Positions 6,321 to 30,622 of a DNA stretch of 35,814 bases are shown in pieces. Every line of letters starts with the position of its first letter. The stretch's first letter is position 1. This DNA is from Dehalococcoidales bacterium (lineage in GTDB: Bacteria > Chloroflexota > Dehalococcoidia > Dehalococcoidales > UBA5760), in assembly GCA_028716225.1 (NCBI GenBank), contig JAQUQE010000002.1, positions 204,613-240,426 of the forward strand. The letters run 5' to 3'. Below the pieces are notes generated by a model. The model saw nothing but the letters and a program-made list of their open reading frames with translations, did not search any database and was not told where the DNA came from. A program made the translations under genes and the position numbers.

Positions 6321-6348
6321 ATTGTAGCACATCTGTGCAATTTGTCAA
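6321..6348 (-). promoter_or_regulatory. lexA promoter with operator-like palindrome
   Basis: On the minus strand TTGACA (6343-6348) and TACAAT (6321-6326) are separated by 16 bases. The spacer carries the perfect palindrome GCACAgaTGTGC (6327-6338). Position and symmetry fit a LexA operator that would block RNA polymerase at its own promoter. The match is by symmetry and position only, because I cannot compare it with a species-specific SOS box. Confidence 0.7.
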
Positions 6349-7749: not shown

Positions 7750-7926
7750 CTACGCTAGGTTCCAGTCCTCTTTGGTAGACCGTGCAGGACAAAAGGTAAA
7801 ACCTTTTCCAGAACCTTTGCCCTCGTTTGTTGAAATCTGCTTTACATTATGTAAGAAGGTATCTATCTTAGAACAGCTTTGCCTACCGTTCGGCTGTATT
7901 CCTTTAGCCAGCTGCAAGTTGATCAT
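7750..7926 (-). CDS. Possible small ORF overlapping the helicase end, containing the repeat tail
   Basis: This is a 58-residue frame starting with ATG at 7924-7926, within the last codons of the helicase gene, and ending FTFCPARSTKEDWNLA. No strong ribosome-binding site is visible. Its C-terminal part matches in frame a peptide encoded at 15224-15307 (SFTFYPRWWTKGDQN), after the end of brxA. The two indels between the copies sum to a multiple of three. That suggests this region once encoded, or still encodes, a protein tail. It could equally be the remnant of a longer gene. Function unknown. Confidence 0.25.
   Translation of the reverse strand: MINLQLAKGIQPNGRQSCSKIDTFLHNVKQISTNEGKGSGKGFTFCPARSTKEDWNLA
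7760..7820. repeat. Imperfect direct repeat, copy 1
   Basis: This 61-base copy aligns with 15228-15294 in direct orientation. It includes a perfect 12-base match, AAAAGGTAAAAC (7791-7802), and by eye about three quarters identity overall with two small gaps. The pair brackets the helicase and the 1230-residue gene. Confidence 0.6.
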
Positions 7927-10519
7927 TGTCGTTCCAATTAATCTTACGAGTGTATCCACAGCGCGGGTAATTAGAACACCCCATAAAGTGTTCACTCGTC
8001 TTGGAATTAAGACGCATAACCAAATTACCTTTCTTGCATCTTGGGCATTTAAGACTAGAATTAAAGTCGACTCTTTCGACATTATCGAGTGGTACCAAAT
8101 TGACTTCAGGGTGGCATATGATATCATCGATAAAACAAGAGGGATTTTGATTTGGTACTAAAATATAAACACTATTCTTAGTCCTGGTTAGCGCAACGTA
8201 AAACAATCTACGCTCTTCTGCAAAAGCAAACTTATCAGGTTCACTTAAGACAAGCTGAAGCATTTCATCGTCTTCGATCTCATTCGGAAAGCCCAGAAGG
8301 CCGCACTCCCCATTAGCGATTATCACATTATCGGCTTCTTGCCCCTTTGCTTTATGCACAGTAAGATAATACATATTGAGTTTAGGGTATTTCTCATATA
8401 CGATTTTGTGCTTCTCTCTAGATCTATCGTATGAAAGTCGGAAGGTTTTATCGCTTTTATCGTTCATGAATTCCAGATCATATTTTGTTCTACCAAGGAC
8501 CATAATACTATTATTGACGCCATATTCTTCTACAAGCATATCAACCGCTTTCACAAAGGCAATTCTCTTATCTTCAACGCCGCTATTATAAATGATCAGG
8601 CGAATAGGTTTATCTCTGTGCTTTTCTGAGGTCAGATTCTTGGGAATCTGATCCTTGTTCCTTAATATGAAATCACCTGCCATGCTGAGTAACCCTTGCG
8701 GACTCCTATATGTTGTCTCCAGCTTGAATAACTCACACGGAATATTATTCTGTTCAAACTTAGAAAATAGTTTAATATCACTTCCAGCGAACCTAAACAC
8801 CGACTGCCAATCATCACCCACTGCGAAAAGATTGGCATTAGTGTTATCAACCAATCGATTTATCAAGTTGTATCTGCTAAGTGATATGTCTTGGTACTCA
8901 TCTATCATCACTTGCTTATAGGTAAATTTCATGTCCGATACAAGTGCCGTAGCTCTTATAATCATGTCATCAAAATCTATGGTATTTGTTTCATGCAAAC
9001 AGTCCTCATAGTAAGTGAAGAAATTATTAAAAATGCGCATGAACAGCTTTGTCCTAATACTCCCAGGATCAGCATTTAACTTCGAGCCATTAGCTTTGTA
9101 TAGAGATAGGAATGACCTTATCAGTTTGGTGAATTCCTCAAACAGACGGTCCGCACCATCAATGTATACTTTCTTGTAAAATTCGCTGCAATCGATTGGC
9201 TTGAATTGCACATTGTAACTACTGAGAGTCTCCTTAAGTTTGTGAAATATATTACCGTCCTGACACTGGAAAGAATAGGTCTCGATTAGCACACTACGAT
9301 TGGCTTTGTGTACCCTGCGTTTCCACTCCATTGAAGATTCATATTTATGTCTCTCTCGTTCATCAGATAAGAAACTGGCTCTCATATTGCGGTCTACACC
9401 AAAATGCTCAATATAGATGTCATAATTCGGTAAGTAAAAATCTGGCCTATAAAGACTAACTGAACTGTTGGGGAATGAATTACCTTTGTAGTTAGTTTCG
9501 TACTCATATTCAATTCCATTGAGGAACAGATAGTTAGCTATCTGCAACTCCTCGAAGCTTCTAACATATTCTCCTTTGTGAGTCTTTAACCTTTTACCAG
9601 TCCTTGATCCTGTCGAAAATGAGTGACGCGCCATTTTGCTTTTAAGGGTTTCCAAATCCATTATCTTTAACGTCTCTATTTGATCCTCGAAATACTTTCC
9701 TTTCTTGGCTGGATTTTGATACAGGAAATAAGCGCAGAAATGAATCAGGTCACGAACATTAGCCTCACTTTGGAAGATATACTCGCCGAAGTACTTCTTA
9801 AAGATTCGACTAATGCCGTTTTCGTCTAGTATATCTTGAACTACATCAGGACCTCTTCTAAGAATATTCAAGCCGAAACTGTGGAACGTGTATACATCAA
9901 CGTCGATTTCTAATCTTTCGCGTATGCGTTTCCTCATCTCCTCAGCCGCTTTCCTCGTGAATGTAATCAACAGGATATCTCCAGGTTTCACCCCTTTACG
10001 TGTAACCAGATATTTAACCTTTGCAGATATCGTCAGTGTTTTCCCGGAACCAGCACCTGCTGCCACAAGACAATTCATCTCACCATTTACGACAGCAGTG
10101 CGCTGTTGTTCATCCAGACTCTTCCCATCAATATCGTCAAACATCTGTGAACACTCGTCTAATTCACGTTGGATATACTCTCTATTCCAAATCTGTACAT
10201 AGTTATCGAAATTCTCATAATGATCTATGAAATTGCTGATGATGCGGTGGTTTATGTTAACCTCATTCAACTTTGGGGGCCATTTCTTTATTGATTTCAG
10301 GACGTTATATGCGTCCTCATAGATCGTCAAGCCAGTTCGCTTCACTATTTTCGAAATATAGTCTTTCTTCAGCTCTGAAATATAATCCTCAAAGTCTTGA
10401 GCTGAATCGTAATGTTTCTTGAAGGCTACAGGATCAAAACGTTTGTTTCGTCTGCGACAAATCGCGACAATAATTATCGACACGATAATAATAAGAAAGA
10501 TCAATCCTGGAATGTTCAT
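7904..10519 (-). CDS. Membrane-anchored UvrD-type (helicase IV-like) helicase with inserted nuclease and C-terminal zinc ribbon
   Basis: This is an 871-residue superfamily 1 helicase. Residues 5-20 form one TM helix followed by CRRRNKR, so the enzyme is probably anchored with its body in the cytoplasm. Walker A is AGAGSGKT (154-161), motif Ia is ITFTRKAAEEM, and motif II is IDEYQD. VHKAKGQEAD and RRLFYVALTR are late SF1 motifs. Between the helicase halves lies a nuclease-like insert. Glu323/324 sit in a helix (SFEELQIANYL), followed by YRPDFYLP with Asp360 and YIEHFG with Glu371, resembling Vsr/Cas4-type PD-(D/E)XK domains. Residues 825-855 form a topoisomerase-like zinc ribbon (CPRC, then two more Cys). 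This architecture is known in helicase-IV-like proteins. A TATAAT lies only 8 bases upstream of the ATG (10528-10533), with no Shine-Dalgarno. A role in processing foreign or damaged DNA is inferred. Confidence 0.9.
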   Translation of the reverse strand: MNIPGLIFLIIIVSIIIVAICRRRNKRFDPVAFKKHYDSAQDFEDYISELKKDYISKIVKRTGLTIYEDAYNVLKSIKKWPPKLNEVNINHRIISNFIDHYENFDNYVQIWNREYIQRELDECSQMFDDIDGKSLDEQQRTAVVNGEMNCLVAAGAGSGKTLTISAKVKYLVTRKGVKPGDILLITFTRKAAEEMRKRIRERLEIDVDVYTFHSFGLNILRRGPDVVQDILDENGISRIFKKYFGEYIFQSEANVRDLIHFCAYFLYQNPAKKGKYFEDQIETLKIMDLETLKSKMARHSFSTGSRTGKRLKTHKGEYVRSFEELQIANYLFLNGIEYEYETNYKGNSFPNSSVSLYRPDFYLPNYDIYIEHFGVDRNMRASFLSDERERHKYESSMEWKRRVHKANRSVLIETYSFQCQDGNIFHKLKETLSSYNVQFKPIDCSEFYKKVYIDGADRLFEEFTKLIRSFLSLYKANGSKLNADPGSIRTKLFMRIFNNFFTYYEDCLHETNTIDFDDMIIRATALVSDMKFTYKQVMIDEYQDISLSRYNLINRLVDNTNANLFAVGDDWQSVFRFAGSDIKLFSKFEQNNIPCELFKLETTYRSPQGLLSMAGDFILRNKDQIPKNLTSEKHRDKPIRLIIYNSGVEDKRIAFVKAVDMLVEEYGVNNSIMVLGRTKYDLEFMNDKSDKTFRLSYDRSREKHKIVYEKYPKLNMYYLTVHKAKGQEADNVIIANGECGLLGFPNEIEDDEMLQLVLSEPDKFAFAEERRLFYVALTRTKNSVYILVPNQNPSCFIDDIICHPEVNLVPLDNVERVDFNSSLKCPRCKKGNLVMRLNSKTSEHFMGCSNYPRCGYTRKINWNDNDQLAAG

Positions 10520-10527
10520 TGGTTGTC

Positions 10528-10533
10528 ATTATA
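10528..10533 (-). promoter_or_regulatory. Perfect -10 element close to the helicase start
   Basis: TATAAT on the minus strand ends 8 bases before the ATG at 10519. With a normal initiation distance the transcript would begin at or within a few bases of the start codon, consistent with leaderless or near-leaderless translation. The -35 region is weak. Confidence 0.45.
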
Positions 10534-10860
10534 CTATCTCTGGCAACAAACGAGGAAGCTACTCAATAATGCGGGGGAGGGGCAATCAATTGGCTGGGGA
10601 GTTGACAGAATCGGTTCGAATCCCCTTAGGTGGGCTTAGGGGGACGATACCTAGAACTCTTAACAAGCCTCGAAAGGTATCGGGACAATCAACGCATGTA
10701 TTTTCAGCGACTTTCCCTTGGCCACCGGGCAAAGAAGAAATAAAAATCTGCCATTCTCATTCGATATTGAATTGAATCCTGGTGTATTATCTTTCTCTGT
10801 ACTTGTTGGCATGAAATCATATTGTGGGAATCGATTTCTGAACACTCCGATGAGTGGTAT

Positions 10861-11070
10861 GTGCAAGCCTTAGGTTAACAGGTGCAAGCGTGAGCCGTGG
10901 TATTCTTGCACTTTTCTTGCACTGCTAGCTTTGCACTGCCACCGGGCCAGGGCTTATATAGGGGGGAGGGGGGTAGCTTGTGCAACGCTTGCGGCCAAGA
11001 GTAACCGGACCACTAAACCGTGCATAAAAGAGGCCGCGGGAAAAAGTGCATGCAAAGGTGACGGGTGCAA
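10861..11070. repeat. Cluster of GTGCAA / TTGCAC hexamers
   Basis: Exact GTGCAA occurs at 10861, 10882, 10980 and 11065. The complement TTGCAC occurs at 10906, 10917 and 10931. Near-copies are GTGCAT at 11020 and 11046. That makes seven exact copies in 210 bases where about 0.1 would be expected by chance. Order by strand is ++, ---, ++. Several copies extend to GTGCAAG or GTGCAAA. The pattern looks like iterated binding sites for a DNA-binding protein, as in replication origins or complex operators. Confidence 0.65.
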
Positions 11071-11140
11071 AGGAGTGCCCCGATTATTTGCCGGCTACCT
11101 GATGGGCTTGGTTATCATGGGTGCCAAGACGATGGTTTGT

Positions 11141-11168
11141 TCAACTAGTTGACAAGAAGATTTCTTGT
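11141..11168. promoter_or_regulatory. Two abutting palindromes, candidate operators
   Basis: TCAACTAGTTGA (11141-11152) is a perfect 12-base palindrome. ACAAGAA-gat-TTCTTGT (11152-11168) is a perfect inverted repeat sharing one base with it. A TTGACA (11149-11154) overlaps both, but no good -10 follows at the normal distance. They lie about 90 bases upstream of the 1230-residue gene and may control it. Confidence 0.45.
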
Positions 11169-11255
11169 GAACGCACTCATATTCCGGATATTCAATGGAG
11201 ATATTCCTGAAAAGCTGATATATTAACAGGAAACAGAGATTACGGATCTGGTGAT

Positions 11256-14200
11256 TTGGAAGCCAAACTTAGAAAAGTAATTTCAGCAGCAGCTGCTTGG
11301 CCACCAAACAGGAATTTTCTTTACTACTGTCTATATCTTTGGTTAAAGCTACCTGATTTATCCAAAAACGTCAACATGGATTCAGATGACCTATCACACT
11401 TGTTATCGCAGCTCATAGATTCAATTCCCCAAAAGGATGCATCTTTATTAGCCAGCATAAGTGATATCTACGTAGCAGATCAAAGAACCGACATACCGAT
11501 TGGCTGGCATAACAAACCTTACCGCTTTTTCTTCGGTGATATGGAGCGTCCTCTCGCGTTAATGGGTAAATTTCTTGAAGACTTCGTTCCGTTAGATGAA
11601 CTTTTTCGCAATAAGTCAGGATTCAGCCCTTCAGCTTTAGTCAGTTTGTCATTGTTGCAACAAGACGTACTAATTGGTGAACTTGAGAGGTTAACTAGCG
11701 ACGTTGATTCTAACCCGAGTAATTTTCTGGAGGCACCTCCTTTAGACTTCCAAAGGAAATGGTGGCAATGCTTAATAGGGTCTTGGAATACGGCATATAA
11801 TGCTCTCTCAGCGAGCTACATACGGGAAATAGAGACTTGGCTAAAAACGGAGGCAAGAAAGCCAGAATCAAAGGAAGTATCCATAGACTACGAAACTGTG
11901 ACTAATCTATTCATCATATTTGAGAATGGTAGAGGGTATATCATCCCGTTCCCTCAAATGTGGTTGAGTCGTTTAGTGAGTTTATTCACACAGCAAGCAA
12001 GGATATTAACCGCAGACCCGGCAATAAACAGGACAATCGCATATAGTACTAAAGAAAGAACTATTGAATACTTAGCAATGCTTAGTCATCAGACTCCTGA
12101 CGTAATGTTATTTCCAGATGTTCATCTAAAGCGGGGAAGTGAAACCTCAAAGGAAATAGACGCCATACTACTCGTGGATATCGACAAATTAATAGCCGTG
12201 AAATCAGCAGCAGGTATCGATCCAGAAGAATTCCAAAAGAGCGTTGACTGCGCTCGCATGAGTATTTCAAACGTTTGTGACCTCATTAGTAAACTAGATG
12301 ATACTCATCAGCTTTCAGTAGTTAGAGACTCTGATCAAAAAACATTGAGCTTAGACCCCAGTGTCGAGTTCACTGTATATCCGCTAATAATAACCAACCA
12401 GATTGTCTTGGAGCCTATCGTTATAGGCCTGGAGAGTACTCCGACGAATACGGAAGTAATGATGCTCACAGATTTAAAAGCGATGACTCATGATATTGAA
12501 GATGCTCTAGATTTTGTCCGCTTCCTGAAGGCGATATATCGGTTAAGGGAATCGAATATACGGTTAATATATACTGACTTCCTTGACGTATGGGGTTGGT
12601 ACCGAGACAACGGCCACAACTTCCTTTGGTCTGCTGATAAATACCCTAATGCTATGTTTGTAGAACCACATCTATACTCACAAAAAGAAACTCAGAGTTT
12701 GTCGGAAATAGCAATTTTGCGCCGATTGATGATAGAACAAGGTGTTCCAGAACGATGTAAGTGCCCTAAGATTAACCAAGACACGTTTAGATTGATGGAT
12801 CCGATTTCGCTAATTGGGATAGTAGTCAGAACTTCTACTCTCGTACCTAACACGTTAACTATACACGTGTGCTCAAGAGAAAGTCATATTGATGATGTTA
12901 CCCATAATGAGTCACTATCTGAGTCAATACTACGCAGATACGAAGAGATTCGTGACACTGCGAAAGAACTAATCAATTCTGCTCCCAAAGATAGCCAGGA
13001 TAGGCTTGTGATTTGGCTTTATGGTGAACGAACTCTTCGCTCTTCGCCATCTCTAGATCATTTAGTCGTTCATCTCGATAACAATCCACAGGAATGTGTC
13101 ATTAGTAGGGGTGTAATACTACCCCAAAAGGGAATAGGTGTCGCTATACTCTACCGAGACAGTCTGCTTGAACTCATGGGGCAAGACACAATTGAAGGAG
13201 AGCTACTTCTGACGAAAGCTATACTCAAAGGTATTGCGTATGCAGTTAAAGCACCACATAACGTTGTAGATTCATTGCTAGCAAAGGTTAATATTTCTAG
13301 CAGGAAAGGAATAAATGTAACCGGAATATACACCAATCATACTTGGAATAAGCCAAGCGCACCGCACAAGAGAAGTCTTTCGACCAAAGCGCAGACAACA
13401 GTAGAAATAGCTGGGATGCTAGCATCAATAGGTGTAAAACCAGCCCAGTATCGAGGTCAACAAGCACGTGATTTGATTAATCATAGAGTCTTTCCTTTCC
13501 TACGGGATCGTCTGGACAATAATCTTCAGGAATTAGAGATCAATGAGGCAGTTCGTTGGGGCTATTTCCAAGTAGAAAACTCCTCGGCCTATTACCAGAT
13601 TGAGCGTATAAGATTAGGATCGGCAGCAACCTCTCTTGAGCTAGAATATGACTTCGGGAAAGCTGCTTATAATATGCAGAGTGCAAATGTTCAAGTCATT
13701 GAAGCTGGTAGTCTGATTCTGGAGAGACTTGCCTTGAGACGACCTTCTGGAACAAAGGGGATCACTCGCGAATTAGGAGAGGCTCTGCTGGATTATGCAA
13801 TTGCATTGCTTGAGTATAGCCAACTTAGCGAACGAGACTATCATAACATAGAAGAAATTGCCTTCGAAATAAGAACTGATTATGCCTTTAAACTCGATTT
13901 AGCAAAGGACAGCGTTTTGAGTATTGACTCTTGGCAATCAGATCATGCATCAGAGGATTTCAGCCGAGAACAGCCGCTTAGGTCTAAATCAACGAAGAAC
14001 AGAAGAGAACGCTATCCCGATGGTGACCCGGAATTGAAAGACATTAGTACGGAGTTTCACAATCAATTCAATTACAGACTCGCCGATTTGCTTGAAGTAT
14101 TGATGGGTTTAAGTACTTTTCCGGTTAATCCCCATGATAGCCTTTTCCCCTTGGCTTCTGCGGATGAAAACGTATTGCTAGATTATCTATGCTCTGTAGT

Positions 14201-14948
14201 AATAGATTGCCACAGATCGGAGGCTAAGAAGGCCTTAGCTAGTTTGTGCCTAAAAAACGATTCACTAGGAGAGGATTGGAAACCTTGGCTCCTGAGGGGC
14301 CGCAGATACCGTTTTACTATATGTCCGCTATTTCATTTGGGTGATAATTATGTTTTCGGGCCATGGTACGTCGAGCGTACTTGTAAGGTGTGGTTAGCTT
14401 ATCTTAATGAGGGTAAACTGCCAATACCTGATAGTGAGTTATCTATACAATTACGCGATGCTCTGCAACAGTTTCGTGACCGAAAGAATCGTCAATTGGA
14501 AGACGACGTAGCCGCTGAAATCGACAGACTAGAATTACCCAAGATTGGACCCAGAATACAGCGTCCTGAGGAGCTGTGGGGATCTAGTGACGACTCGCCT
14601 GTTGGCGAGATTGATATCTTAGTTGCTGACGTGAGCAATAAAGAACTATACGTTCTTGAAGTAAAAGACCCTACGAGAACGTTAACGATTTATGATATAG
14701 GTAATCAGCTTAGAGATTACTACGAAGGAGACGCCTGTTTCCAGAACAAGTTATTGAAAAAGACAAATTATATAGAGAGCCGTCTACCTGCTGTACTTTT
14801 CACCATGGGAATAAATCAGAATGCCAACTGGCAGGTCAAACAAGTGTTTATCACGCGTTTTCCTATTGCAGCGGCCTACTATAAGGAGCGTAAATGCCGG
14901 TTTTTGACCCTAAGGAATATGGGGTTATTGAAGTCCCACGACGTATAA
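11256..14948 (+). CDS. Large protein with C-terminal PD-(D/E)XK nuclease-like domain and a degenerate internal copy
   Basis: This is a 1230-residue protein. I use the TTG at 11256 because the N-terminus (MEAKLRKVISAAAAWPPNRNF) looks natural; the next ATG would remove 40 residues and has no ribosome-binding site. Near the C-terminus Glu1118-Ile-Asp1120 and Glu1135-Val-Lys1137 (VLEVKDPT) form a convincing restriction-endonuclease-fold active site. A parallel pattern occurs at Glu300-Ile-Asp302 and Ala314-Val-Lys316 (LIAVKS), where Ala replaces the catalytic Glu, suggesting a dead copy. I see no Walker motif, helicase motif or TM segment. I do not recognise the family. The gene is divergent from the helicase-nuclease gene and sits beyond the brxA end of the BREX operon. 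Its nuclease motif and neighbourhood make a defence effector role plausible but unproven. Confidence 0.8.
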   Translation: MEAKLRKVISAAAAWPPNRNFLYYCLYLWLKLPDLSKNVNMDSDDLSHLLSQLIDSIPQKDASLLASISDIYVADQRTDIPIGWHNKPYRFFFGDMERPLALMGKFLEDFVPLDELFRNKSGFSPSALVSLSLLQQDVLIGELERLTSDVDSNPSNFLEAPPLDFQRKWWQCLIGSWNTAYNALSASYIREIETWLKTEARKPESKEVSIDYETVTNLFIIFENGRGYIIPFPQMWLSRLVSLFTQQARILTADPAINRTIAYSTKERTIEYLAMLSHQTPDVMLFPDVHLKRGSETSKEIDAILLVDIDKLIAVKSAAGIDPEEFQKSVDCARMSISNVCDLISKLDDTHQLSVVRDSDQKTLSLDPSVEFTVYPLIITNQIVLEPIVIGLESTPTNTEVMMLTDLKAMTHDIEDALDFVRFLKAIYRLRESNIRLIYTDFLDVWGWYRDNGHNFLWSADKYPNAMFVEPHLYSQKETQSLSEIAILRRLMIEQGVPERCKCPKINQDTFRLMDPISLIGIVVRTSTLVPNTLTIHVCSRESHIDDVTHNESLSESILRRYEEIRDTAKELINSAPKDSQDRLVIWLYGERTLRSSPSLDHLVVHLDNNPQECVISRGVILPQKGIGVAILYRDSLLELMGQDTIEGELLLTKAILKGIAYAVKAPHNVVDSLLAKVNISSRKGINVTGIYTNHTWNKPSAPHKRSLSTKAQTTVEIAGMLASIGVKPAQYRGQQARDLINHRVFPFLRDRLDNNLQELEINEAVRWGYFQVENSSAYYQIERIRLGSAATSLELEYDFGKAAYNMQSANVQVIEAGSLILERLALRRPSGTKGITRELGEALLDYAIALLEYSQLSERDYHNIEEIAFEIRTDYAFKLDLAKDSVLSIDSWQSDHASEDFSREQPLRSKSTKNRRERYPDGDPELKDISTEFHNQFNYRLADLLEVLMGLSTFPVNPHDSLFPLASADENVLLDYLCSVVIDCHRSEAKKALASLCLKNDSLGEDWKPWLLRGRRYRFTICPLFHLGDNYVFGPWYVERTCKVWLAYLNEGKLPIPDSELSIQLRDALQQFRDRKNRQLEDDVAAEIDRLELPKIGPRIQRPEELWGSSDDSPVGEIDILVADVSNKELYVLEVKDPTRTLTIYDIGNQLRDYYEGDACFQNKLLKKTNYIESRLPAVLFTMGINQNANWQVKQVFITRFPIAAAYYKERKCRFLTLRNMGLLKSHDV

Positions 14949-15344: not shown

Positions 15345-16100
15345 CTACTTCTGTTTAAGTATTACGAATTGCTCATTCAAACCATGATGAATGACTTGAA
15401 TTCGCCCGTGTTTTTCGAGGAGATTGGAGTGCACTGACGCAACTTTGAAAGGGAATAGAATTGGCGACTCTAACACCATCTTCAGAGATGAGCTATCATC
15501 TTCATTTATGCTCAATACACTTTCTATAAGCCAAGCAACCACCCCAGGCTCTGTCACACTTCGCACCTGCCCGGTTTCGTAAACCCCAAGACTGAGTCCT
15601 TCCCGTAAGACTCCCCATTCCACGAAGTTACGAAGGACATGCCTGGTGGCTCGACTCACTGTCTCGCGCTCTCCATACTTTTCCTTCAACCTGCGCTGAA
15701 CTTGTGATGCTGATGCTGTCCCTTGGAGTCTTAATAATCTGCCAACACTTTCGGCAACCATTCCAATGAATGGATAGGCGGCAATTGACATACCCCAATG
15801 TAGTATGATGTGCTCTTGAGTAGTCAGATGATTGAATAAAACTAATCCTCCCTTACGAAGAAATTCAACCTCAGCAGGTGCCCTGACCCATATTTTCTTA
15901 AGGATAGATATTGTTTTGCCACGACTTCCACGCTGTGCGTGGCTCCCCACAGAAAGTCTCTCACGCAGTAATTCCTCTAATGAGATGTCAATGGAATGTT
16001 TATCGAGTCCAGCCAAAACTAAGTTTGCCGTATACTCAAGCCACTCTAATTTGATTCGTTCGTTTATACCTATTTCCACTAAACGATTTGATTTCGTCAT
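15345..16100 (-). CDS. brxA: BrxA-like protein, last gene of the BREX operon
   Basis: This is a 251-residue protein at the end of the operon. Its start overlaps the pglZ stop as ATGA (16097-16100). The middle section (about 90-170) looks like winged-helix DNA-binding structure: HIILHWGMSIAAYPFIG, LRLQGTASASQVQRRLKEKYG and HVLRNFVEWGVLREG. BrxA (DUF1819) is a small DNA-binding protein found in several BREX types, and type 3 loci carry it together with brxF, brxC, pglXI, brxHII and pglZ. I assign it from size, helical content and position rather than a diagnostic motif. It is somewhat longer than the roughly 200 residues of type 1 BrxA. An unrelated accessory protein remains possible. Confidence 0.65.
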   Translation of the reverse strand: MTKSNRLVEIGINERIKLEWLEYTANLVLAGLDKHSIDISLEELLRERLSVGSHAQRGSRGKTISILKKIWVRAPAEVEFLRKGGLVLFNHLTTQEHIILHWGMSIAAYPFIGMVAESVGRLLRLQGTASASQVQRRLKEKYGERETVSRATRHVLRNFVEWGVLREGLSLGVYETGQVRSVTEPGVVAWLIESVLSINEDDSSSLKMVLESPILFPFKVASVHSNLLEKHGRIQVIHHGLNEQFVILKQK

Positions 16101-18094
16101 TCTATCCTCACCAAAGGCACAATCAGTTCTTCTACAGATATCCCTCCGTGGGCAATAGTCTTATGATTCTCCGTGATGAAAGCAAAGCGAGCAGGAGCAA
16201 TAAGAGGAACCAAGCTATCCGGGAGACCAATAGACGGCCACTCGATAGTTTCCGGGAATTGTTCCTTCACCCTCGAACGTAGAGCCGAATCAGGATATAT
16301 ACGTACTCGTTCGCCTCGTAACTCGGCTATTGATCCCTCTGAGGGACAGCCTAGCCCTTTAGCTTCAATGTTTCCGTGGTCAGAAGTTAAAACAAGACTA
16401 AAATTACTGGCTTTCAGCATATCAAATATATGTGCTAGGAACGCTTCATTCGCCCATTGTCGTATCAAGTTATGCATTCCGGCTGCGCCTAATTCCATTC
16501 CATGCATTATTCTGTCCACTTTTGTAACAACTAAACCCAACACTTTGACATTCGGATTAGCGGCTACTTCGTATAATTCGTCTATCTGATTGTCCTCGAG
16601 TATTTTGAAATATGAGATCTCATCGCTTGTTAACCCATTGTTCATCCAGAATTGGGTCCAGGAGGCAGATTCTCTGTCCGTTGAGCTTATACTTGATGGG
16701 AAGTAGATTGGCGCTTTCCCAGAAAATATGGCTTGTCTGGATATGGAGGTGATTGTTGGCAACCACGCAAAGCAGGCGCTTTCATTTAGTCGTAAATCAG
16801 GCAGTTGGGTCTGTAATGTATTTCGTATAACTATCCACTGGTCTATGGCAAGCCCATCAATAACAACAAGAGCTATCTTGTCGAGTTCTCCACTTTCTCG
16901 CTGTCTTGCCAAAGCTCGGGGAATGTGATGAACCATCACAGGAGGCACAGCAGGTTGGTTATGTAGACCGGAATACGCATTTTCGACCCAGCTAAGGAAA
17001 CTGGAATCGACTGTAGCCTGGAGCGTTAAAAATCTAGCAATAACTTCTTGTGGTTGCCCGCCGATTTCTACATCTAGCCACAGAGCGTTTAGTTCTCCCC
17101 ACAGATAGGCAAATCGTAGCCAATCCCGATATTTGCTTTCAATCGCTGGTATAGACGACTCTACTGACTCCAATAATCGGTTCAAGCGTTTAAGTCGGTT
17201 AGCTTTAGGGTCGCTTATAATTCCAGCAGTGACCCAAGTTCCGGCAAAATTAAATGATTCCGGAGGCTCAACAGGATGCAACAAGCCTTCTCCGAACATA
17301 TTATCTATGTAGATACGAATATCGGCATCGTCAAAAGGCAGTTTTACCGGACCCGAATATCTCAGATCATATGAACGTAAACCCGGTTCTCCGGAATCCG
17401 ACTGTGATATAGCCAACTGATCTAGGAATATCGGCCACCTTTCCTGAAGAAAAGAAAGAAATGCATACCTGTCGGAAACGATCTCCTCGAGCGGCCACTC
17501 GCTGAATTTATCGTTTTGACGAAGGACTTGAATGAGACGTTGATCTAGGATAGCATTAAGGCACTGGTTCCGATAATGTCGTCGAAGTAGCAACCTGAGC
17601 AAGTCTGCAGAAGTTCCGACAGACTCTGGAGCGATTCCAAAGACGTGACGTAATATAAAATCCTTGGTTGCATTATCGCCTAGTCTTACTGGTCTCAGTT
17701 GTTCTTGGGCCTTAGATAACGCGTCGAAGTCACTCAACTCCAGGGCTGCAACTATAGGGTAGCTGAGATTCGGGAAAACGTCGACAAGGCTAGTCGAAAA
17801 CAAACGTGTTCCGTGCATTAAATCAAAGGGTATTAAGTTTGGCTCTCTCGTTTTAAAATGTACAACTACAGAAGAGTCAGTGTTTTCACCACGGTCCCAT
17901 TTAGAGCGAAATCTGGATTCGTAAACGTACCTAAACGAGACGTTATCTTCCAAGACAAGTAGTTCGAAGCCTCGAGCGTGAATTACTTTCATTATTTGTT
18001 CTTCTAGGAGTAGACCATCGGGATCCAGAGCCACGGTTACACGCGTGGTTTGGGGAGAGAATTCGTCTAGGATTCGCTTGCGCCAATCACTCAC
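16097..18094 (-). CDS. pglZ: PglZ-family protein (BREX type 3)
   Basis: This is a 665-residue protein with the alkaline-phosphatase-like PglZ domain in its C-terminal half. Asp413 is in VVIDGLAIDQW, Thr447/Thr449/Ser452 in LPTITSISRQAIFSG, Asp527/His531 in VTKVDRIMH, Asp572-His573 in LTSDHGN, and HGGISVEELIVPL is at 649-661. These fit the metal-binding framework of the superfamily. PglZ is the hallmark protein of BREX systems and is needed for both methylation and phage exclusion in studied cases. The start is a GTG with GGAGG upstream, overlapping the brxHII stop by 8 bases. The N-terminal 380 residues are helical and probably serve complex assembly. Confidence 0.9.
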   Translation of the reverse strand: MSDWRKRILDEFSPQTTRVTVALDPDGLLLEEQIMKVIHARGFELLVLEDNVSFRYVYESRFRSKWDRGENTDSSVVVHFKTREPNLIPFDLMHGTRLFSTSLVDVFPNLSYPIVAALELSDFDALSKAQEQLRPVRLGDNATKDFILRHVFGIAPESVGTSADLLRLLLRRHYRNQCLNAILDQRLIQVLRQNDKFSEWPLEEIVSDRYAFLSFLQERWPIFLDQLAISQSDSGEPGLRSYDLRYSGPVKLPFDDADIRIYIDNMFGEGLLHPVEPPESFNFAGTWVTAGIISDPKANRLKRLNRLLESVESSIPAIESKYRDWLRFAYLWGELNALWLDVEIGGQPQEVIARFLTLQATVDSSFLSWVENAYSGLHNQPAVPPVMVHHIPRALARQRESGELDKIALVVIDGLAIDQWIVIRNTLQTQLPDLRLNESACFAWLPTITSISRQAIFSGKAPIYFPSSISSTDRESASWTQFWMNNGLTSDEISYFKILEDNQIDELYEVAANPNVKVLGLVVTKVDRIMHGMELGAAGMHNLIRQWANEAFLAHIFDMLKASNFSLVLTSDHGNIEAKGLGCPSEGSIAELRGERVRIYPDSALRSRVKEQFPETIEWPSIGLPDSLVPLIAPARFAFITENHKTIAHGGISVEELIVPLVRIE

Positions 18095-20888
18095 CGGATT
18101 GACCTCCCTCTACGCGCAGTATTAATACTGGGACTATCTCAGGATTTATTTGAGTGTTTCTATCAAACTGCTTGTGCCAGAGACGCTCTTCTTTCTCTAA
18201 CTCGGTAAGCCTATGATTGCGCACTGCAGGTAATCCGATGCGCTGGATGGCTCGTCGTCGTGCAGCGAAAGCGTACTGAATCTTCTTTTCCTCTTTGACT
18301 GAGCGGGCATTAAGTGAAGCTACTGATTCCTCATAGACGTCCTTGCCATAGGTTTCTGCATTTTCCATTGTCTCCTGGAACGCCAGATTGCTTTCTTCTA
18401 TCGTGCAGTAACCTTTCGTGACAACATCGTCTGATAGCATAAGGTCCCAGATGCGGCGGGCTGTTGGTAATAATACTCTTCCGTCATCGTGCATGAACAA
18501 TGCTATTATTCGTTTCTGTGACCAATCTTGCATAGAAACGTTGATCTGTAATAAGCACCATATTCCATTGAGGTCTCTTTGAAGACTAGGTACACTAACA
18601 AATGGGATGGGCTGTCCGGCTACCGCCCTTGGAAGCTTCATAACTAGGTCGCGAATACGCCGGTCCTCTAAGGTCAGATGCCGCTCGGCTGGCATTATTA
18701 TGGTTTCCTTGGTGACGAATACGCCTTCATAACAAACTCCATCTGGCCATATAATAGTCCAGCCAGTTTTCTTCTGTTCTGTAGATCCACCTTGAGCCCG
18801 TACATAACTTGTAGTCATACGTTCGATCCAATGTGGTAAGGGATGCTCTAAGACTTGCTTAGTATCTTTAAGGCTGAGTTCCGCTGTTGAGTTGAGAAGC
18901 GAACGATTGATTCGCCATTCATGGGCTTGAGCCTGGACTTGGGCAACTGCACTTTCTACCGTTGATTCGATGGTCTCAGGATGTAATATCGCTTCCACGT
19001 ACAAGTTATCGAATATTTTCTCTGCTTCAGCTGAATCCAGAATATCTGCTGTCTTGTCAACTCCGAACTCTTTAAGGATTACAGCTAACTTTTGTTCGAG
19101 GACTTCGAGTATTCGATGTTCAACCGAATCTTCAAGAACAAGATTAATGGCTCGGACAATGTGCTCTTGTCCAATCCGGTCAACGCGACCAATTCTTTGC
19201 TCCAGTCGCATCGGGTTCCAAGGAATATCGTAGTTAATTACAATGTGGCAAAATTGGAGATTCAAACCTTCGCCTCCAGCGTCGGTAGAAATTAGGATAC
19301 GAGTGCTCTTGGCAAAGTCTTCCTGAACCTGTACACGCTGGTCTATGTCCAAGGAACCATTCAGGCAGACAACTGAAAAACCTCGTTCTGCCAAGAAGTC
19401 TTTAAGCATCTCCTGAGTCGGCACGAACTCCGTGAAAATAAGTATCTTTAAATCTGGCTCACCTTCTTCCTGCTGTAACTTGTAGATCCAATCAAGGAGA
19501 GCTTCGGCTTTAGCGTCTGGCCCAGTTTCGCCACAACGTTTGGCAGTGTCCAGGAGCAAATTGACTTGAGCCTTTTCGTTTTTCAGAGCCATCAAACGGC
19601 CTTTGAGTACCGCTTCTAACTGTTCCTGCCCATCCATATCTGTCCAATCTGTATCCAGGTTAGATGGGAAGAGCAGGAGCTGTTCTTCGGGAGCTTCTAA
19701 GACTTCCGCACGCCGTTCGAGGGTGGTACATATGGCTCTGGTACTAGAGACAACAAGTCGTTGCATGAGAATCATCAGAAAACCAATGTAACTTCGCTTT
19801 TCGCGCATTGCCTGATTATAACCATTACGGACGTAATCTGTGACGGCATCGTAAAGTAACCGTTGCTTCTGGTGTTTCTCCTGCCAGGATGCCGGCTCTA
19901 GCTGGGTGCGTCGCGGCTTAAAAAGTGGTTTGCCCTCGATATCTATGGCCCGCCGTTTCTCTGTCCTGATTACATAGGGCTGCACTCTGTCTCGGCTGAT
20001 GCTGTTCGTCCCAGGGAACTGTTCTTTATCCAGAAGTGAGAGAACGCGCTGAAAAGAATCAGTTTTTCCCTGATGGGGAGTTGCAGAGAGTAATAATAAG
20101 TATGGTGTAGCTTCAGCTAGACCTTGTCCAAGTCTATAACGAGCGACCTGATCGGTACTTCCTCCTAATCGATGTGCCTCATCTACAATAACTAGGTCCC
20201 ACCCAGCCGATATAAGATCTTCAAAACGCCCCTTATTGTATTCGTCAACCTTTTTTTGAAGCCAGCCACGACGAATATCAAGAGGTTTTACAGAATCCAT
20301 GGGGCAGATTAATTGGTTGGAATGGCGCCATATGTTTGCTTCACCCGTTGCCTTGTGGTAGAGATGAATGTCACCGGGTATGACCACCTGGAATTCCTCT
20401 CCGAAACGGTTGTGCATCTCCGTAGCCCATTGAGTAACCAGGCCTTTGGGTACAACAATTAGGGTACGATTTACAAGTCCACGCAACTTGAGCTCTCGCA
20501 TGATAAGTCCCGCTTCGATGGTTTTACCCAAACCTACTTCATCAGCGAGTAGGTACCGGATGCTATCACCAGAAATAGCTCGATATAGAGTCTGGATCTG
20601 GTGCGGAAGCGGGATGATAGAGGATACTAGAGGAGCCAGTAACACATCCTGAGTTAGTGCTTCAGCAATACGTGCTGCAGCCGAGACGTAGGCAACGTAA
20701 TCTGTTGAACATGTCCTGGCTTCTATTGCTGGCAATAACCTACTTGCGGGGATGCGAACCACTTTATCCTGTTGCGGAAGCCAGATGCGGCAAAAAGAGT
20801 CTCCCCAGAGGGTCTGTGTCTCGATGATCTTACACAGTTCATTGTGATCAACACTATAATACCAATTATCGTCATGCATTGGGTTCAT
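18087..20888 (-). CDS. brxHII: BrxHII-like SNF2-type helicase (BREX type 3)
   Basis: This is a 933-residue superfamily 2 helicase/translocase. Motif I is DEVGLGKT (115-122), preceded by the Q-like LPHQIQTLYRA. Motif II is DEAH (235-238) and motif III is LLLSATPHQGKTD. The C-terminal helicase half has GGEGLNLQFCHIVINYD and QRIGRVDRIGQ. This matches the DEVGLGKT/DEAH SNF2-like subgroup used in BREX type 3 and DISARM. Its ATG overlaps the stop of the preceding GmrSD-like gene (TAATG). It probably moves on DNA to help discriminate or block phage replication. A general bacterial SNF2 helicase would look similar, but the operon position favours BrxHII. Confidence 0.88.
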   Translation of the reverse strand: MNPMHDDNWYYSVDHNELCKIIETQTLWGDSFCRIWLPQQDKVVRIPASRLLPAIEARTCSTDYVAYVSAAARIAEALTQDVLLAPLVSSIIPLPHQIQTLYRAISGDSIRYLLADEVGLGKTIEAGLIMRELKLRGLVNRTLIVVPKGLVTQWATEMHNRFGEEFQVVIPGDIHLYHKATGEANIWRHSNQLICPMDSVKPLDIRRGWLQKKVDEYNKGRFEDLISAGWDLVIVDEAHRLGGSTDQVARYRLGQGLAEATPYLLLLSATPHQGKTDSFQRVLSLLDKEQFPGTNSISRDRVQPYVIRTEKRRAIDIEGKPLFKPRRTQLEPASWQEKHQKQRLLYDAVTDYVRNGYNQAMREKRSYIGFLMILMQRLVVSSTRAICTTLERRAEVLEAPEEQLLLFPSNLDTDWTDMDGQEQLEAVLKGRLMALKNEKAQVNLLLDTAKRCGETGPDAKAEALLDWIYKLQQEEGEPDLKILIFTEFVPTQEMLKDFLAERGFSVVCLNGSLDIDQRVQVQEDFAKSTRILISTDAGGEGLNLQFCHIVINYDIPWNPMRLEQRIGRVDRIGQEHIVRAINLVLEDSVEHRILEVLEQKLAVILKEFGVDKTADILDSAEAEKIFDNLYVEAILHPETIESTVESAVAQVQAQAHEWRINRSLLNSTAELSLKDTKQVLEHPLPHWIERMTTSYVRAQGGSTEQKKTGWTIIWPDGVCYEGVFVTKETIIMPAERHLTLEDRRIRDLVMKLPRAVAGQPIPFVSVPSLQRDLNGIWCLLQINVSMQDWSQKRIIALFMHDDGRVLLPTARRIWDLMLSDDVVTKGYCTIEESNLAFQETMENAETYGKDVYEESVASLNARSVKEEKKIQYAFAARRRAIQRIGLPAVRNHRLTELEKEERLWHKQFDRNTQINPEIVPVLILRVEGGQSGE

Positions 20889-22867
20889 TAGTTTTCAAAA
20901 CACCAGAGTTTTTTAATGGCGTTGAACGTGAGCCTCTGTCTTGACTCAATTTGCGTTCTTGGGAAGGCACCGCTAGCATTAGGTTGAATAACTTCTACAC
21001 GCAAATCATCAGGTAGTCTGTTTTTATCCACCTCGGGAAGATGGCCAACAAGTAACTCATTCCAAATGAAATTGCTTTTCTTGTAAGTTTCGATTTTATC
21101 CCGATAAATCTCATTATTACTACTCAGGTTTTGAAGATCCTTAAGAAGAAGCACCATTCCGAGTCTATTACGCTCTATGTTGAATGTATGTTCATCGAAA
21201 CCTTGATCTCCATCCGTGAATTGAGCCATATTCGGCTCATTGTATGCATATATATGCTCAAGATGAAGACCGTACCTACGACGAGTTGTTTTGTTAAAGC
21301 GATCTTCCAACTGCTCTAATCCCGTACCTACATAAGTAGGCTTATCGAGAAGTTGCCAGAGATATCTGTCAATTCGCATGAGCACATATTTGCTATAATT
21401 CGTCCAGTTGTTGCTTACACCCTTGAACCGCTCGTAGGTAAAAATATCTTCTACACATTTGATATCACCCTTCCGAACAATTTCTCTTTCTTCGAGAATG
21501 CTGATCAATGTAGAATTAAATATGGTCGCGATCTGAGTTAAAGATTTATTTCTGATCTCTTTGTTGAGGGGATAAATAACTCTCTGAAAACTGTTGCTTT
21601 CATAGGCGCCTAGAAGGCGTGTAACCGAATGTAGCTGGTCAAATTTCTTGGCTATTCCAGAGATTTTAGATTCTTTGTCAGCATCGTTTTCCTCTAGGCC
21701 GGATAAGATCAGCAAATATTGCTGATTCTGGTCGAGAAGTTTGTTATATAGAAGATATTCGTTATCATAGCTTGTACGTAGCCACAAATACATCTTGGCG
21801 AAATATTGAATGTCTCTAACAATGCGGGAATATAAAAGCTGCGGGTCATTGAAATCTTTGAAGTATTTTCTTATCTGTCCATTTCTGTAGACCTCATAGT
21901 GGTAAGCTCCCTCAAATTTCTCATATTCATCTTCAGTATCAGCAAACTTGGCTCGGAAGAACGTCCGGAAAAATAAGTCGAGGTCGAGCTTTGACTCAGT
22001 GCTGTTTTTTAGTTCAGCGTTGAAATAGCTGTTTTGCAATTCAGTCCAGACTGTGTTTGCATGTTCCTTCTGGTTTGCTGGCAAATTACCGATTAGCTTA
22101 CCTTTAAGAATCTCGTATGGTTTGAGCCCGAGTCCACGGTCATTCACCACCTCAAATATCATTGCCACATTCTTCTGTTTCTCTATTTTAATTTCCACTA
22201 TTGAAATGCGATCCAGCAGGTAGGCAATGTAATATGTTAGTTTAACGACATCGTAACGCCCAGGTTCACCCTCGCTCATGAAGTAATTATCGTAGTACTG
22301 ACTGATTATTTCGTAATTCTCTTTGATTCTTTTTTGTGTTTCATCAACGGGTTTAATGTCCGGACCTTCCAGTAATTGCCGGAAAGTCGATTCCCTGTTT
22401 TCATTGAATATCTTAAAACGTTTCGCCTCCCCAAAATCATCACTTTCAAAAATAAGCTTTTCCAGAGTTTGGCTGCTGAAAGTCTTAACAGTATAAAGGT
22501 GATCTGACTCAATGGTTTTGAGTATCTTATGTAGCTTAATAAGTACCAACAGTAGAGTCGTAAGACGTTGTTGTCCATCTACTATCGAAGTGTTTGTAGG
22601 CGTACTATGGGTAAGGTATGTGTTTAGAAAATACGGCTCAAATCGTTCCTGAACCTCAGCCTGAATCTGTTTAGGCTCGGTATTTGTGCGTTGGTTGATT
22701 CCAAATTGGACTTCGATGTCATTGAGAAGCGTCTTTACATTGTCTGGAGTCCATTTGTATTCGCGTTGATAGATATCGATGAAGTAAGCTTTTGCGGTAT
22801 TGAAAACACTGCGCAGAAACTGGTCATTAGGAGTTATAACACTTCGAACCGTCGCTTCTTCTGGCAT
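20888..22867 (-). CDS. GmrSD-like protein (DUF262 plus DUF1524 HNH), inserted in the BREX operon
   Basis: This is a 659-residue protein. The N-terminal DUF262/ParB-like nucleotide-binding domain has IYQREYKW (32-39) and VDGQQRLTTL (96-105). NDRGLGLKPYEILKGKLIG follows in the middle. The C-terminal DUF1524 section has the HNH-type LHLEHIYAYN and NIERNRLGMVLLLKDLQN. This is the layout of single-chain GmrSD type IV restriction enzymes, which use nucleotides to cut DNA carrying modified bases. A comparable enzyme, BrxU, accompanies a BREX system in Escherichia fergusonii. Here it follows pglXI by 2 bases, with GGAGG upstream, and overlaps brxHII, so it is expressed with BREX. It would cover phages whose modified DNA escapes BREX. 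Specificity cannot be read from the sequence. Confidence 0.88.
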   Translation of the reverse strand: MPEEATVRSVITPNDQFLRSVFNTAKAYFIDIYQREYKWTPDNVKTLLNDIEVQFGINQRTNTEPKQIQAEVQERFEPYFLNTYLTHSTPTNTSIVDGQQRLTTLLLVLIKLHKILKTIESDHLYTVKTFSSQTLEKLIFESDDFGEAKRFKIFNENRESTFRQLLEGPDIKPVDETQKRIKENYEIISQYYDNYFMSEGEPGRYDVVKLTYYIAYLLDRISIVEIKIEKQKNVAMIFEVVNDRGLGLKPYEILKGKLIGNLPANQKEHANTVWTELQNSYFNAELKNSTESKLDLDLFFRTFFRAKFADTEDEYEKFEGAYHYEVYRNGQIRKYFKDFNDPQLLYSRIVRDIQYFAKMYLWLRTSYDNEYLLYNKLLDQNQQYLLILSGLEENDADKESKISGIAKKFDQLHSVTRLLGAYESNSFQRVIYPLNKEIRNKSLTQIATIFNSTLISILEEREIVRKGDIKCVEDIFTYERFKGVSNNWTNYSKYVLMRIDRYLWQLLDKPTYVGTGLEQLEDRFNKTTRRRYGLHLEHIYAYNEPNMAQFTDGDQGFDEHTFNIERNRLGMVLLLKDLQNLSSNNEIYRDKIETYKKSNFIWNELLVGHLPEVDKNRLPDDLRVEVIQPNASGAFPRTQIESRQRLTFNAIKKLWCFEN

Positions 22868-22869
22868 AC

Positions 22870-25611
22870 TTAACCTCCCTTCCTGGTTATTGCCTGGTCA
22901 TACCACATGAGGAGCTTGGGGTCCTCCTGCAGAACGTTCTCAGGAATCTTTCCTGCAACCTCAATGATGGTGGTGTAATCGCGATCAGCCCAGGCTTTCT
23001 TGAAGCCACTACGCACGGCTTCTAGCCGGAAAACTTTTAGTTGCTTCTGCTTGGACTGGCGATATTCTTCAAACTCGCGGAGGAGTGCACGTTCGCGTAG
23101 TTTCTCCAGGTCTCCCGCCTTATTTGGGTCCGGGACATACCAGCGGTCTTTAGCCTTAGTACGTAATGCCGGATCATTCTTAGGCAGATGGCGCAGTTCT
23201 TTGAAATTGCTTGATAGGTAGCTGTGAATCTGGCTGGGAACATCGCCGGTGCCATCGTACCTCAGGAAGTTCTGCTCCAGAAGCTCTGTTAGTTCCAACG
23301 GTTTCTCATGTTTCTGCCAGCCGCCAATCTCTCTCAGAAACTGCGGATGAAGCTCTTGGAAAGTCTGCGGTTTCTGAAGCAGTTGCTGTTTGAGCCATTG
23401 AATGGCTGAAGATTCATCTATCACAAATAGCTGGAGTTGCAGCACTTCTTTTACCGTCATCCGCTTTTTATCATATTCAGCAACCTGCTCCGGAAGGAAA
23501 TACATACCGTCACGCTCAGGGAAGCGCTGTTCCAGACCCAGATAGAAATCGGAAGCGGAAAGCGGTATGGTAACACCCCTCTGGACATGGAATGCCACCA
23601 TGCGGTCATATAGTAGAAAATTCTGCCGCTCGGCGATAACCTCTAATTGCCCATTCTTTCCTACGAATACGGGAAGCTGCCTTAGGTGAGTGCGGGTGAA
23701 GTCCCAGACACCATCTTCTGTGCCTGCTTCGAGCTTGAAGCGCTCCTCCAGACCGCCGTTTGGCTTGTATGCGGTTATTATTAAATCCTGTTTTACAGCC
23801 CCGGCTGTGGTCGCTTGTTTGAAGGATTTCTGCTTTTTGTCAAGTATTCTGACGTCAGCCACTACGAAACCTGACCTGGTCAGAGCTTCCTGAATCGCAT
23901 TCCACACGGCATTCTTACTATTATGAAACTCGATCGTTATCCAGCGACCCGGCTTTAGTACACGCCGAAACTCTGAAAAGCACTGCTCCATCAAATGTTG
24001 ATAGTCCAGCAAGCTTTTCTCTTGAATAGGGCTCTCGATTGCATCTGGCTTCAAGTTGGTGAATACCCCGAGCAGTGCTTCCCAGAGGAAGTTTACTTCA
24101 GAGTAAGGGATATTAGATCCGAAAGGTGGATCAACAAAGATATAATCTATCGCATTTTCGGGTACATTAAGGGATGTAGACGAGCCACACCATACTGTAT
24201 GACTAGTATTATCCCCTTTCCCCTTTTTTGGAAGGGCTGTCCACATTCCTTCTTCTGCAGAACGAATCATATCTCCTGCGGAGATACGTAACATATGGCT
24301 AAAGCGCATTTCCTGCCAGACAGAGGAGATATATAAAGTACCCTTTTGCACACGTCCAATCCCATCGGCGTTATAGACCATCAAGCGAGAGGTCTTCTGC
24401 AAGATAGACGTTCCAGTAAACAGAAGTGCACGGTGCTCAGCACGCTTGAGATCAAGGAGCTCCATGAAACGGCTGACGTAGTGCAGTTGCCTCTCAGCAA
24501 ATAGTTGGTGTGCGTGAGTTATTGGCCGAAGATGAAGACAGTTTTTCCATTGGTCTCCCCATTGACCATCGCGGAACAACATTTTAACTGCAAAGCGGTT
24601 CGCAGATTGCGGTAAAGGTGTCTGTCGAACTCTCGCAAGAAGATTTTTATCATCCTCATTTACCCTTCTTTTTTCAGCTCTCTTTGAACCATGAGAGACT
24701 ATTGCTAACACGGGCACCTGTTTATAGCGGGTCCACGGTTTCTTGAGTATCTGGTCATACACAGTCTCATGTGCTCTTTCAGCTGAGGTTTTGGAGTTCT
24801 CTGCCCCGCAAGAATTACATGTGAACGTGTCTAAGAATTTTTTCTGTCGGCTATCGAAAGCCACTTCCCAAAATACTATTTCTGATCCACAAGAATTACA
24901 TATAAATACATCAGACCAAACATAGTAATTACAAATTGCCGAACCTATCACATCTTGACCAGGACGATACATCCACCCCAGTTCGTCATCAAGCTGATCC
25001 GCAATACGTAGAGCCTCTCTCAAGTAAGTATGAGTGTCTACTTGGCATAAATATACCGATGCAATAAAACTTGCAGCGGGGGATAGGTCACATATAAGTG
25101 TACTCCGACTTGGATTAGCCATTAGGGCAGCAATACCCGTCATGCCGCTACCAGCAAACCCATCAAGGATTATTTCTCCAGGTTCGGTGTAGTGTTCAAT
25201 GAAATTCTTAAGAGCTTTAGGGGGCACTTTAGTATGGTAAGTATGTGCTTTATAGAGCCACGTATGTCTACCCTCTGTAATATCAAACGCGAAAGGTTTC
25301 TTGTTGTATACTTTCATTGAATCGTATGGCTTCCCGTAGCACCGGATAAAGTCCTCAATGAATGGGTTGGGACAGGCTGTATAATATGGTGGGTCTGATA
25401 ACGCCAGGATATCTTCATCAGAGCCTATGGGGAAGCCTTCAATCTTGCGGAACTCCGGGTCCTCGAGCTTTTTCTTGAGCCTTTCAATGAAGTATTTGCG
25501 GCGCTCCCCATCATTCTGAAATGTCGTTCCCAGGCATTCAACAGGACCCTCTATTGAAGACTGGCTTTTCTCACCATCAAACATTAAAGTTTGTCCGGCC
25601 TTCTCTTCCAT
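22870..25611 (-). CDS. pglXI: PglXI-like adenine-specific DNA methyltransferase (BREX type 3)
   Basis: This is a 913-residue methyltransferase. SAM-binding motif I is DGFAGSGMTG (150-159). There are two DPP-type motifs: SDPPYYTACPNPF near 72-84 and FVDPPFGSNIPYSE near 492-505, the latter being the probable catalytic motif IV. A zinc-ribbon-like insert has CNSC at 238-241 and 264-267. The C-terminal 300 residues are helical and could read the target. In BREX this enzyme marks host DNA, usually at N6-adenine of a non-palindromic site, so that self is spared. It starts 11 bases after the DUF6602-like gene with AAGGA upstream, and ends 2 bases before the GmrSD-like gene. The family is clear; the site is unknown. 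Confidence 0.9.
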   Translation of the reverse strand: MEEKAGQTLMFDGEKSQSSIEGPVECLGTTFQNDGERRKYFIERLKKKLEDPEFRKIEGFPIGSDEDILALSDPPYYTACPNPFIEDFIRCYGKPYDSMKVYNKKPFAFDITEGRHTWLYKAHTYHTKVPPKALKNFIEHYTEPGEIILDGFAGSGMTGIAALMANPSRSTLICDLSPAASFIASVYLCQVDTHTYLREALRIADQLDDELGWMYRPGQDVIGSAICNYYVWSDVFICNSCGSEIVFWEVAFDSRQKKFLDTFTCNSCGAENSKTSAERAHETVYDQILKKPWTRYKQVPVLAIVSHGSKRAEKRRVNEDDKNLLARVRQTPLPQSANRFAVKMLFRDGQWGDQWKNCLHLRPITHAHQLFAERQLHYVSRFMELLDLKRAEHRALLFTGTSILQKTSRLMVYNADGIGRVQKGTLYISSVWQEMRFSHMLRISAGDMIRSAEEGMWTALPKKGKGDNTSHTVWCGSSTSLNVPENAIDYIFVDPPFGSNIPYSEVNFLWEALLGVFTNLKPDAIESPIQEKSLLDYQHLMEQCFSEFRRVLKPGRWITIEFHNSKNAVWNAIQEALTRSGFVVADVRILDKKQKSFKQATTAGAVKQDLIITAYKPNGGLEERFKLEAGTEDGVWDFTRTHLRQLPVFVGKNGQLEVIAERQNFLLYDRMVAFHVQRGVTIPLSASDFYLGLEQRFPERDGMYFLPEQVAEYDKKRMTVKEVLQLQLFVIDESSAIQWLKQQLLQKPQTFQELHPQFLREIGGWQKHEKPLELTELLEQNFLRYDGTGDVPSQIHSYLSSNFKELRHLPKNDPALRTKAKDRWYVPDPNKAGDLEKLRERALLREFEEYRQSKQKQLKVFRLEAVRSGFKKAWADRDYTTIIEVAGKIPENVLQEDPKLLMWYDQAITRKGG

Positions 25612-25622
25612 CTGACCATCCT

Positions 25623-26402: not shown

Positions 26403-26404
26403 AT

Positions 26405-30603: not shown

Positions 30604-30622
30604 TGATGCACTCCTGGGTCTC

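Follow-up and report, generated by a model that had tools for sequence, protein, structure and literature searches.

A GTGCAA hexamer array in a dispersed repeat beside recombinase genes of a Dehalococcoidales genome

The locus and its hexamer cluster

The window, the whole stretch of 35,814 nucleotides analysed here, comes from a Dehalococcoidales bacterium whose genome (G000) is a fragmented assembly of 2.64 Mb on 156 contigs. The segment under study sits between a UvrD-helicase gene on the minus strand (7904-10519) and a gene for a 1230-aa protein on the plus strand (11256-14948), which is followed by a BREX operon; no recombinase gene lies beside it. The helicase is an 871-aa UvrD/GajB-like protein with a C-terminal topoisomerase zinc ribbon, and the 1230-aa protein has no match in Pfam, PADLOC or NCBIfam. 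The operon (15345-30654, minus strand) resembles type 3 BREX (brxF, brxC, a pglX-type methylase, a helicase, pglZ and brxA) and has two inserted genes, encoding a 659-aa Orf5/HEC-06-like protein and a 259-aa PD-(D/E)XK/NucC-like nuclease. The family scans covered part of the ORFs of the window. An inverted repeat, GTTGACAAGAA-N3-TTCTTGTGAAC, at 11148-11172, between the array module described below and the gene for the 1230-aa protein, is a possible operator. The hexamer sites in the segment are as follows.

10861..10866, plus strand: GTGCAA site 1, exact hexamer
10882..10887, plus strand: GTGCAA site 2, exact hexamer
10906..10911, minus strand: GTGCAA site 3, exact hexamer
10917..10922, minus strand: GTGCAA site 4, exact hexamer
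10931..10936, minus strand: GTGCAA site 5, exact hexamer
10980..10985, plus strand: GTGCAA site 6, exact hexamer
11020..11025, plus strand: degenerate site GTGCAT, which reads GTGCAA in the copy on contig C37
11046..11051, plus strand: degenerate site GTGCAT, conserved in six of the seven module copies described below
11065..11070, plus strand: GTGCAA site 7, exact hexamer

Seven exact copies of GTGCAA/TTGCAC thus occupy 10861-11070 in the strand order ++, ---, ++, matching the range, count and strand order of the original prediction, and both degenerate sites fall between sites 6 and 7. The start-to-start spacing is irregular (11-85 bp) and both strands are used. The prediction that the cluster far exceeds chance was borne out, since dinucleotide shuffles of the segment (n=2000) contained 0.35 copies on average and four at most. 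Across the full window the hexamer is no more frequent than expected (14 copies versus 16.1 in shuffles); half of its copies (7/14) fall within these 210 bp, and GTGCAA is its most clustered hexamer, the runner-up reaching five. Nor is the clustering a property of the genome at large: pairs of the form GTGCAA-N5-20-GTGCAA number 14 in the 2.64 Mb; copies of the module described below hold 12 of these, and a reversed-sequence control gave a count of one.

TTGCAC also occurs at 6335-6340, as part of the palindrome-like TAGCACATCTGTGCAA (6325-6340) at the start of lexA, a possible LexA box of the lineage. This overlap with the array hexamer is most likely a coincidence, as had been supposed, because TAGCACATCTGTGCAA matches only itself in the window when up to three mismatches are allowed. 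LexA as the binder of the array, or the array as a LexA (SOS) operator, was rejected on the same observation.

A dispersed repeat with a sharp junction

The array belongs to a repeat that recurs in G000 and in a MAG of the same genus, Dehalococcoidia bacterium UBA5760 (G008). This membership in a repeat associated with mobile elements could not be seen from the letters of the window, on which the original prediction was based. The repeat is composite, with a left half and an array module that also occur separately.

10623..11134, plus strand: composite dispersed repeat (left half and array module), with 85-91% identity on C23 and C37 of G000 and once in G008
10613..10657, plus strand: fragment GGTTCGAATCC, like the 3' end of tRNA-Ala, matching tRNA-Ala 3' ends and the DNA that follows them in other families of the order at 80-91% identity over 44-49 bases
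10629-10635, plus strand: core GGTGGGC, inside the tRNA-Ala-like fragment; other large serine recombinases (LSRs) have GGTGGGC or GGTAGGC at their end and run on into a tRNA gene
10640-10657, plus strand: LSR-type arm GGGGACGATACCTAGAAC, inside the tRNA-Ala-like fragment
10623..10852, plus strand: left half of the repeat, ending in CGATG (10848-10852); found without the array on C10
10853..11134, plus strand: array module, 282 bp, non-coding, ending in GACGATG (CGATG at 11130-11134), beyond which the copies diverge; also found without the left half

A search of G000 with the intergenic region of the window returned C23 (91% over 512 bp) and C37 (85%) with the composite repeat, C26 with the module only (86%) and C10 with the left half only (81%). 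Full module copies number four in G000 (the window, C23, C37 and C26) and three in G008 (G008a, G008b and G008c), at 86-96% identity, and the left half is missing from those on C26, G008b and G008c. One further, degenerate module copy stands in tandem on C37, starting right after CGATG. The array is kept in all seven full copies: in their alignment, 90% of the hexamer columns are invariant versus 69% of the columns elsewhere in the module; when the motif mask was shifted circularly, 0.4% of the shifts reached this value. This constraint, together with the near-absence of hexamer pairs outside the modules, fits sites for a protein specific to the elements and speaks against a general host operator. 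We therefore predict that GTGCAA is the recognition hexamer of a protein-binding array. The original prediction had named origin iterons or a multi-site operator as the typical settings of such arrays; its multi-site binding is favoured by the genomic rarity and the conservation in seven copies, so that neither of the refuting outcomes it had named, equal density genome-wide or a lack of conservation in homologous loci, was observed, whereas the iteron origin does not fit, as discussed below.

On the right, homology ends at GGTACCAAGACGATG or a close variant in all seven copies, and the DNA beyond is largely unrelated. The left half on C10 closes with CCGATG, and the next six bases, GTTTGT, are also those found 3' of CGATG in the window. 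The flank of one G008 copy is related to contig C25 of G000, which has no module, with 86% identity over 373 bp up to CATCG, after which the two differ. C25 gives the one related flank without a module. The shared stop at CGATG, the unrelated flanks and the C25 flank suggest site-specific recombination at a CGATG-containing core; a search with the host flanks of other copies found no homologue that spans a junction. The flanks on C23 and at G008c have CGATGTRAAGTTACCTA in common, which pairs as an inverted repeat with the GGTACC at the end of the module, and half-sites GGTACC...GTTACC around CGATG occur in these two copies only. A classical MITE has terminal inverted repeats and variable target duplications. 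The module was rejected as one, as no inverted repeat joins its two ends and CGATG is identical in all copies rather than a variable duplication.

The module was seen in G000 and G008 only. In 156 other genomes of the order, nothing comparable was found apart from one weak 34-base match. A sequence profile run with stricter filters over 393 genomes of the class matched only G000, and G008 is itself absent from these matches, so that either the sample or the strict filters missed it. A scan of genome contigs with a 17-bp pattern gave 39 matches; the G008 copies account for the three in UBA5760, and when loci were ranked by hexamer cluster, no others appeared among the top ones listed. In viral contigs a 20-bp module pattern had no match and a 16-bp pattern gave chance-type matches, with only module copies at the top of the hexamer-cluster ranking. 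A core match in a further genome (G004) was rejected as chance, having no similarity to the element loci.

Recombinase genes and tRNA-like cores beside the module

Six of the seven module copies adjoin a recombinase gene, the window copy being the exception. The neighbours comprise three LSRs (C23, C37 and C26), one tyrosine integrase (G008a) and two operons of an AbrB-like protein, a 240-aa protein and an LSR (G008b and G008c). The C23 enzyme has Resolvase, Recombinase and zinc-ribbon domains. The C37 enzyme lies in a prophage-like region, close to HTH, IrrE-like and gp3-like recombination-directionality genes, and on C26 the tail of an LSR is present at the contig end. Two of the three PF07508 recombinases detected in G000 border a module. 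The frame upstream of the G008a integrase, its apparent N-terminal part, reads to us like an arm-binding N-terminal domain but has no standard start codon. In the G008b and G008c operons, the 707-aa product of the last gene is recognised as an integrase by PHROGs, with a weak Resolvase match in Pfam. A promoter-like TTGACA-17-TAGATT (sigma-70-like) precedes the operon, beginning 37 bp past the last base of module homology, inside the module edge. At one G008 locus (L076, 8962-12193) the AbrB-like/240-aa/707-aa operon has a regulator-like C-terminus on the integrase (phrog_95, phrog_323) and few relatives in the order; viral contigs yielded no relatives of the 240-aa and 707-aa proteins.

The left half starts like the end of a tRNA-Ala gene followed by an LSR arm. 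LSRs at other places in G000 and G008 stop at GGTGGGC or GGTAGGC, their 3' ends running into an apparent tRNA gene of the other strand; loci L261 and L262 show this arrangement. The pattern suggests a tRNA-like attachment core in the left half as well, namely its initial GGTGGGC. In several families of the order, GGGGACGATACCTAGAAC lies directly 3' of tRNA-Ala genes with different anticodons or of tRNA-like fragments (L018 1501-1549; L019-L022; L024), and these occurrences are apparent scars of LSR integration. If GGTGGGC is such a core, the C23 and C37 LSRs may have crossed over there, in which case the module would lie outside their elements and may come from an older, neighbouring one.

Explanations for the array

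The explanation that we favour, although we put its chances only at about even, is that integrative elements of a family restricted to this lineage carry the array at their end, where it would act as attachment-site arm and regulatory region. In its favour are the dispersal of the seven copies, their common GACGATG end, the C25 flank without a module, the recombinase neighbours of six copies, the promoter-like site of the AbrB-LSR operon and the conservation of the hexamers. Such elements would be bounded by the CGATG-containing recombination core, with the recombinase genes just inside. A GTGCAA-binding protein, which could be an accessory recombination factor, an element repressor (for example the AbrB-like protein encoded by the G008 elements) or a recombinase, would load on seven to nine sites beside the crossover point and the recombinase promoter, and would thereby link recombinase expression with integration or excision. 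The element end would persist in the window as a scar or island border. Because no recombinase stands beside it, the window copy is probably such a scar or border, between the UvrD-helicase gene and the island of the 1230-aa gene and BREX operon. Several observations count against the arm explanation. The adjoining recombinases are unrelated (several LSRs and one tyrosine integrase), so that no single enzyme accounts for the CGATG junction; no element was recovered with both of its ends from the fragmented assembly; the window copy has no recombinase beside it; the module is confined to two genomes; and, to our knowledge, the serine integrases described so far need no arm sites. Its main weakness is the ambiguity of the crossover on C23 and C37, where the LSRs seem to recombine at GGTGGGC, left of the left half.

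In a different explanation, the left half and module together form a pre-existing repeated target, a mimic of a tRNA end with GGTGGGC, into which different integrases insert from the left, the array being old cargo or a remnant of an earlier element with no part in the reaction of the present recombinases. Three recombinases, namely the C23 and C37 LSRs and the G008a tyrosine integrase, meet this same left half at GGTGGGC, other LSRs of both genomes end at this core or its GGTAGGC variant in tRNA genes, and the left half resembles a reversed LSR 3' end. However, the modules of G008b, G008c and C26 do without the left half, the recombinase side there facing different DNA, and the hexamers are under constraint, unlike a dead relic. 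We regard such a landing site as possible but rather unlikely.

The hexamers could also act solely on transcription, as an operator or enhancer of the AbrB-LSR operon in G008 or of the gene past the junction, and be carried along with no role in recombination. The promoter-like site of that operon, directly inside the module edge, fits this proposal, as does the gene start found 110-190 bp past the junction in the direction of the module in most copies. The nearest hexamers, however, lie upstream of the AbrB-LSR promoter and not over it, the genes on both sides vary between copies, and the module end always falls exactly at the recombination-like junction, which leaves a purely regulatory array unlikely. 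We are equally doubtful of a mobile cassette for attachment that is tied to no single recombinase, in which the CGATG-bounded module of about 280 bp could stack in tandem and would give the unrelated integrases of serine- and tyrosine-recombinase elements in this lineage a common platform for an accessory protein.

In architecture, the module resembles the attP arms of tyrosine integrases (lambda-type and ICEMlSymR7A), with a few hundred non-coding base pairs that hold several predicted protein sites beside a core and an integrase promoter. In ICEMlSymR7A the RdfS/IntS system provides joint control of attP and promoter, one protein acting on both recombination and transcription (PMC11963761). 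RdfS has no consensus motif (PMC11963761), whereas the GTGCAA of the module is strict, and most module copies adjoin serine recombinases, which are not known to need arm sites, a tyrosine integrase being adjacent to one of seven (G008a). In setting, the module resembles the Dehalococcoides genomic islands. Passages on these islands in PMC3146451 describe integration at ssrA, a CcrB-like serine recombinase at the island edge, islands in tandem with ssrA repeats in between, and a dsiB homologue that contains an att repeat; they make no mention of a hexamer array. These described islands share with our loci the class of bacteria, the tandem integration scars and a serine recombinase at the edge, which here holds for C23, C37, the C26 tail, G008b and G008c and not for the window copy. 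The att repeat within the dsiB homologue, as reported there, is matched by LSR 3' ends that overlap an att-like site in G000 and G008. The islands as described use ssrA and a 20-bp repeat, in contrast to the tRNA-like GGTGGGC and CGATG cores here, and no tmRNA gene was found in the window or the loci scanned. We class the module neither as an ssrA-island member, given the absence of the ssrA repeat, nor as a member of the tyrosine-integrase attP arms, whose mark would be an integrase that binds the repeated sites.

Iteron origins consist of tandem direct repeats of about 17-22 bp at regular spacing. The module shares with them a clustering of short repeats, here in non-coding DNA of a mobile element, but an origin of this type, serving replication or transfer of an element after excision, is very improbable, given the 6-bp unit, the irregular spacing on mixed strands, the absence of a DnaA box at up to one mismatch in 10483-11357, the higher G+C content of the module than of its surroundings, and its place at recombination-like junctions beside integrases. 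The scan of neighbouring genes recognised no Rep gene, in agreement with the original prediction, and placed the adjacent 1230-aa protein in no family. A structured non-coding RNA gene, which a conserved non-coding segment adjoining recombinase genes might suggest, is just as remote, since shuffled sequence folds as well as either strand (z +1.95 and -0.62), no Rfam family matches at gathering or relaxed thresholds, and column conservation follows the hexamers, which lie on both strands.

A puzzling hexamer cluster is now tied to integrative elements in Dehalococcoidia. In this class, according to the passages of PMC3146451 cited above, dechlorination genes are carried on islands that serine recombinases have put in place. 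If the LSRs here use an array of accessory sites in the manner of an arm, they would differ from known serine integrases with their simple attP, and the GTGCAA array with its GACGATG tag would mark the borders of elements, defence islands included.
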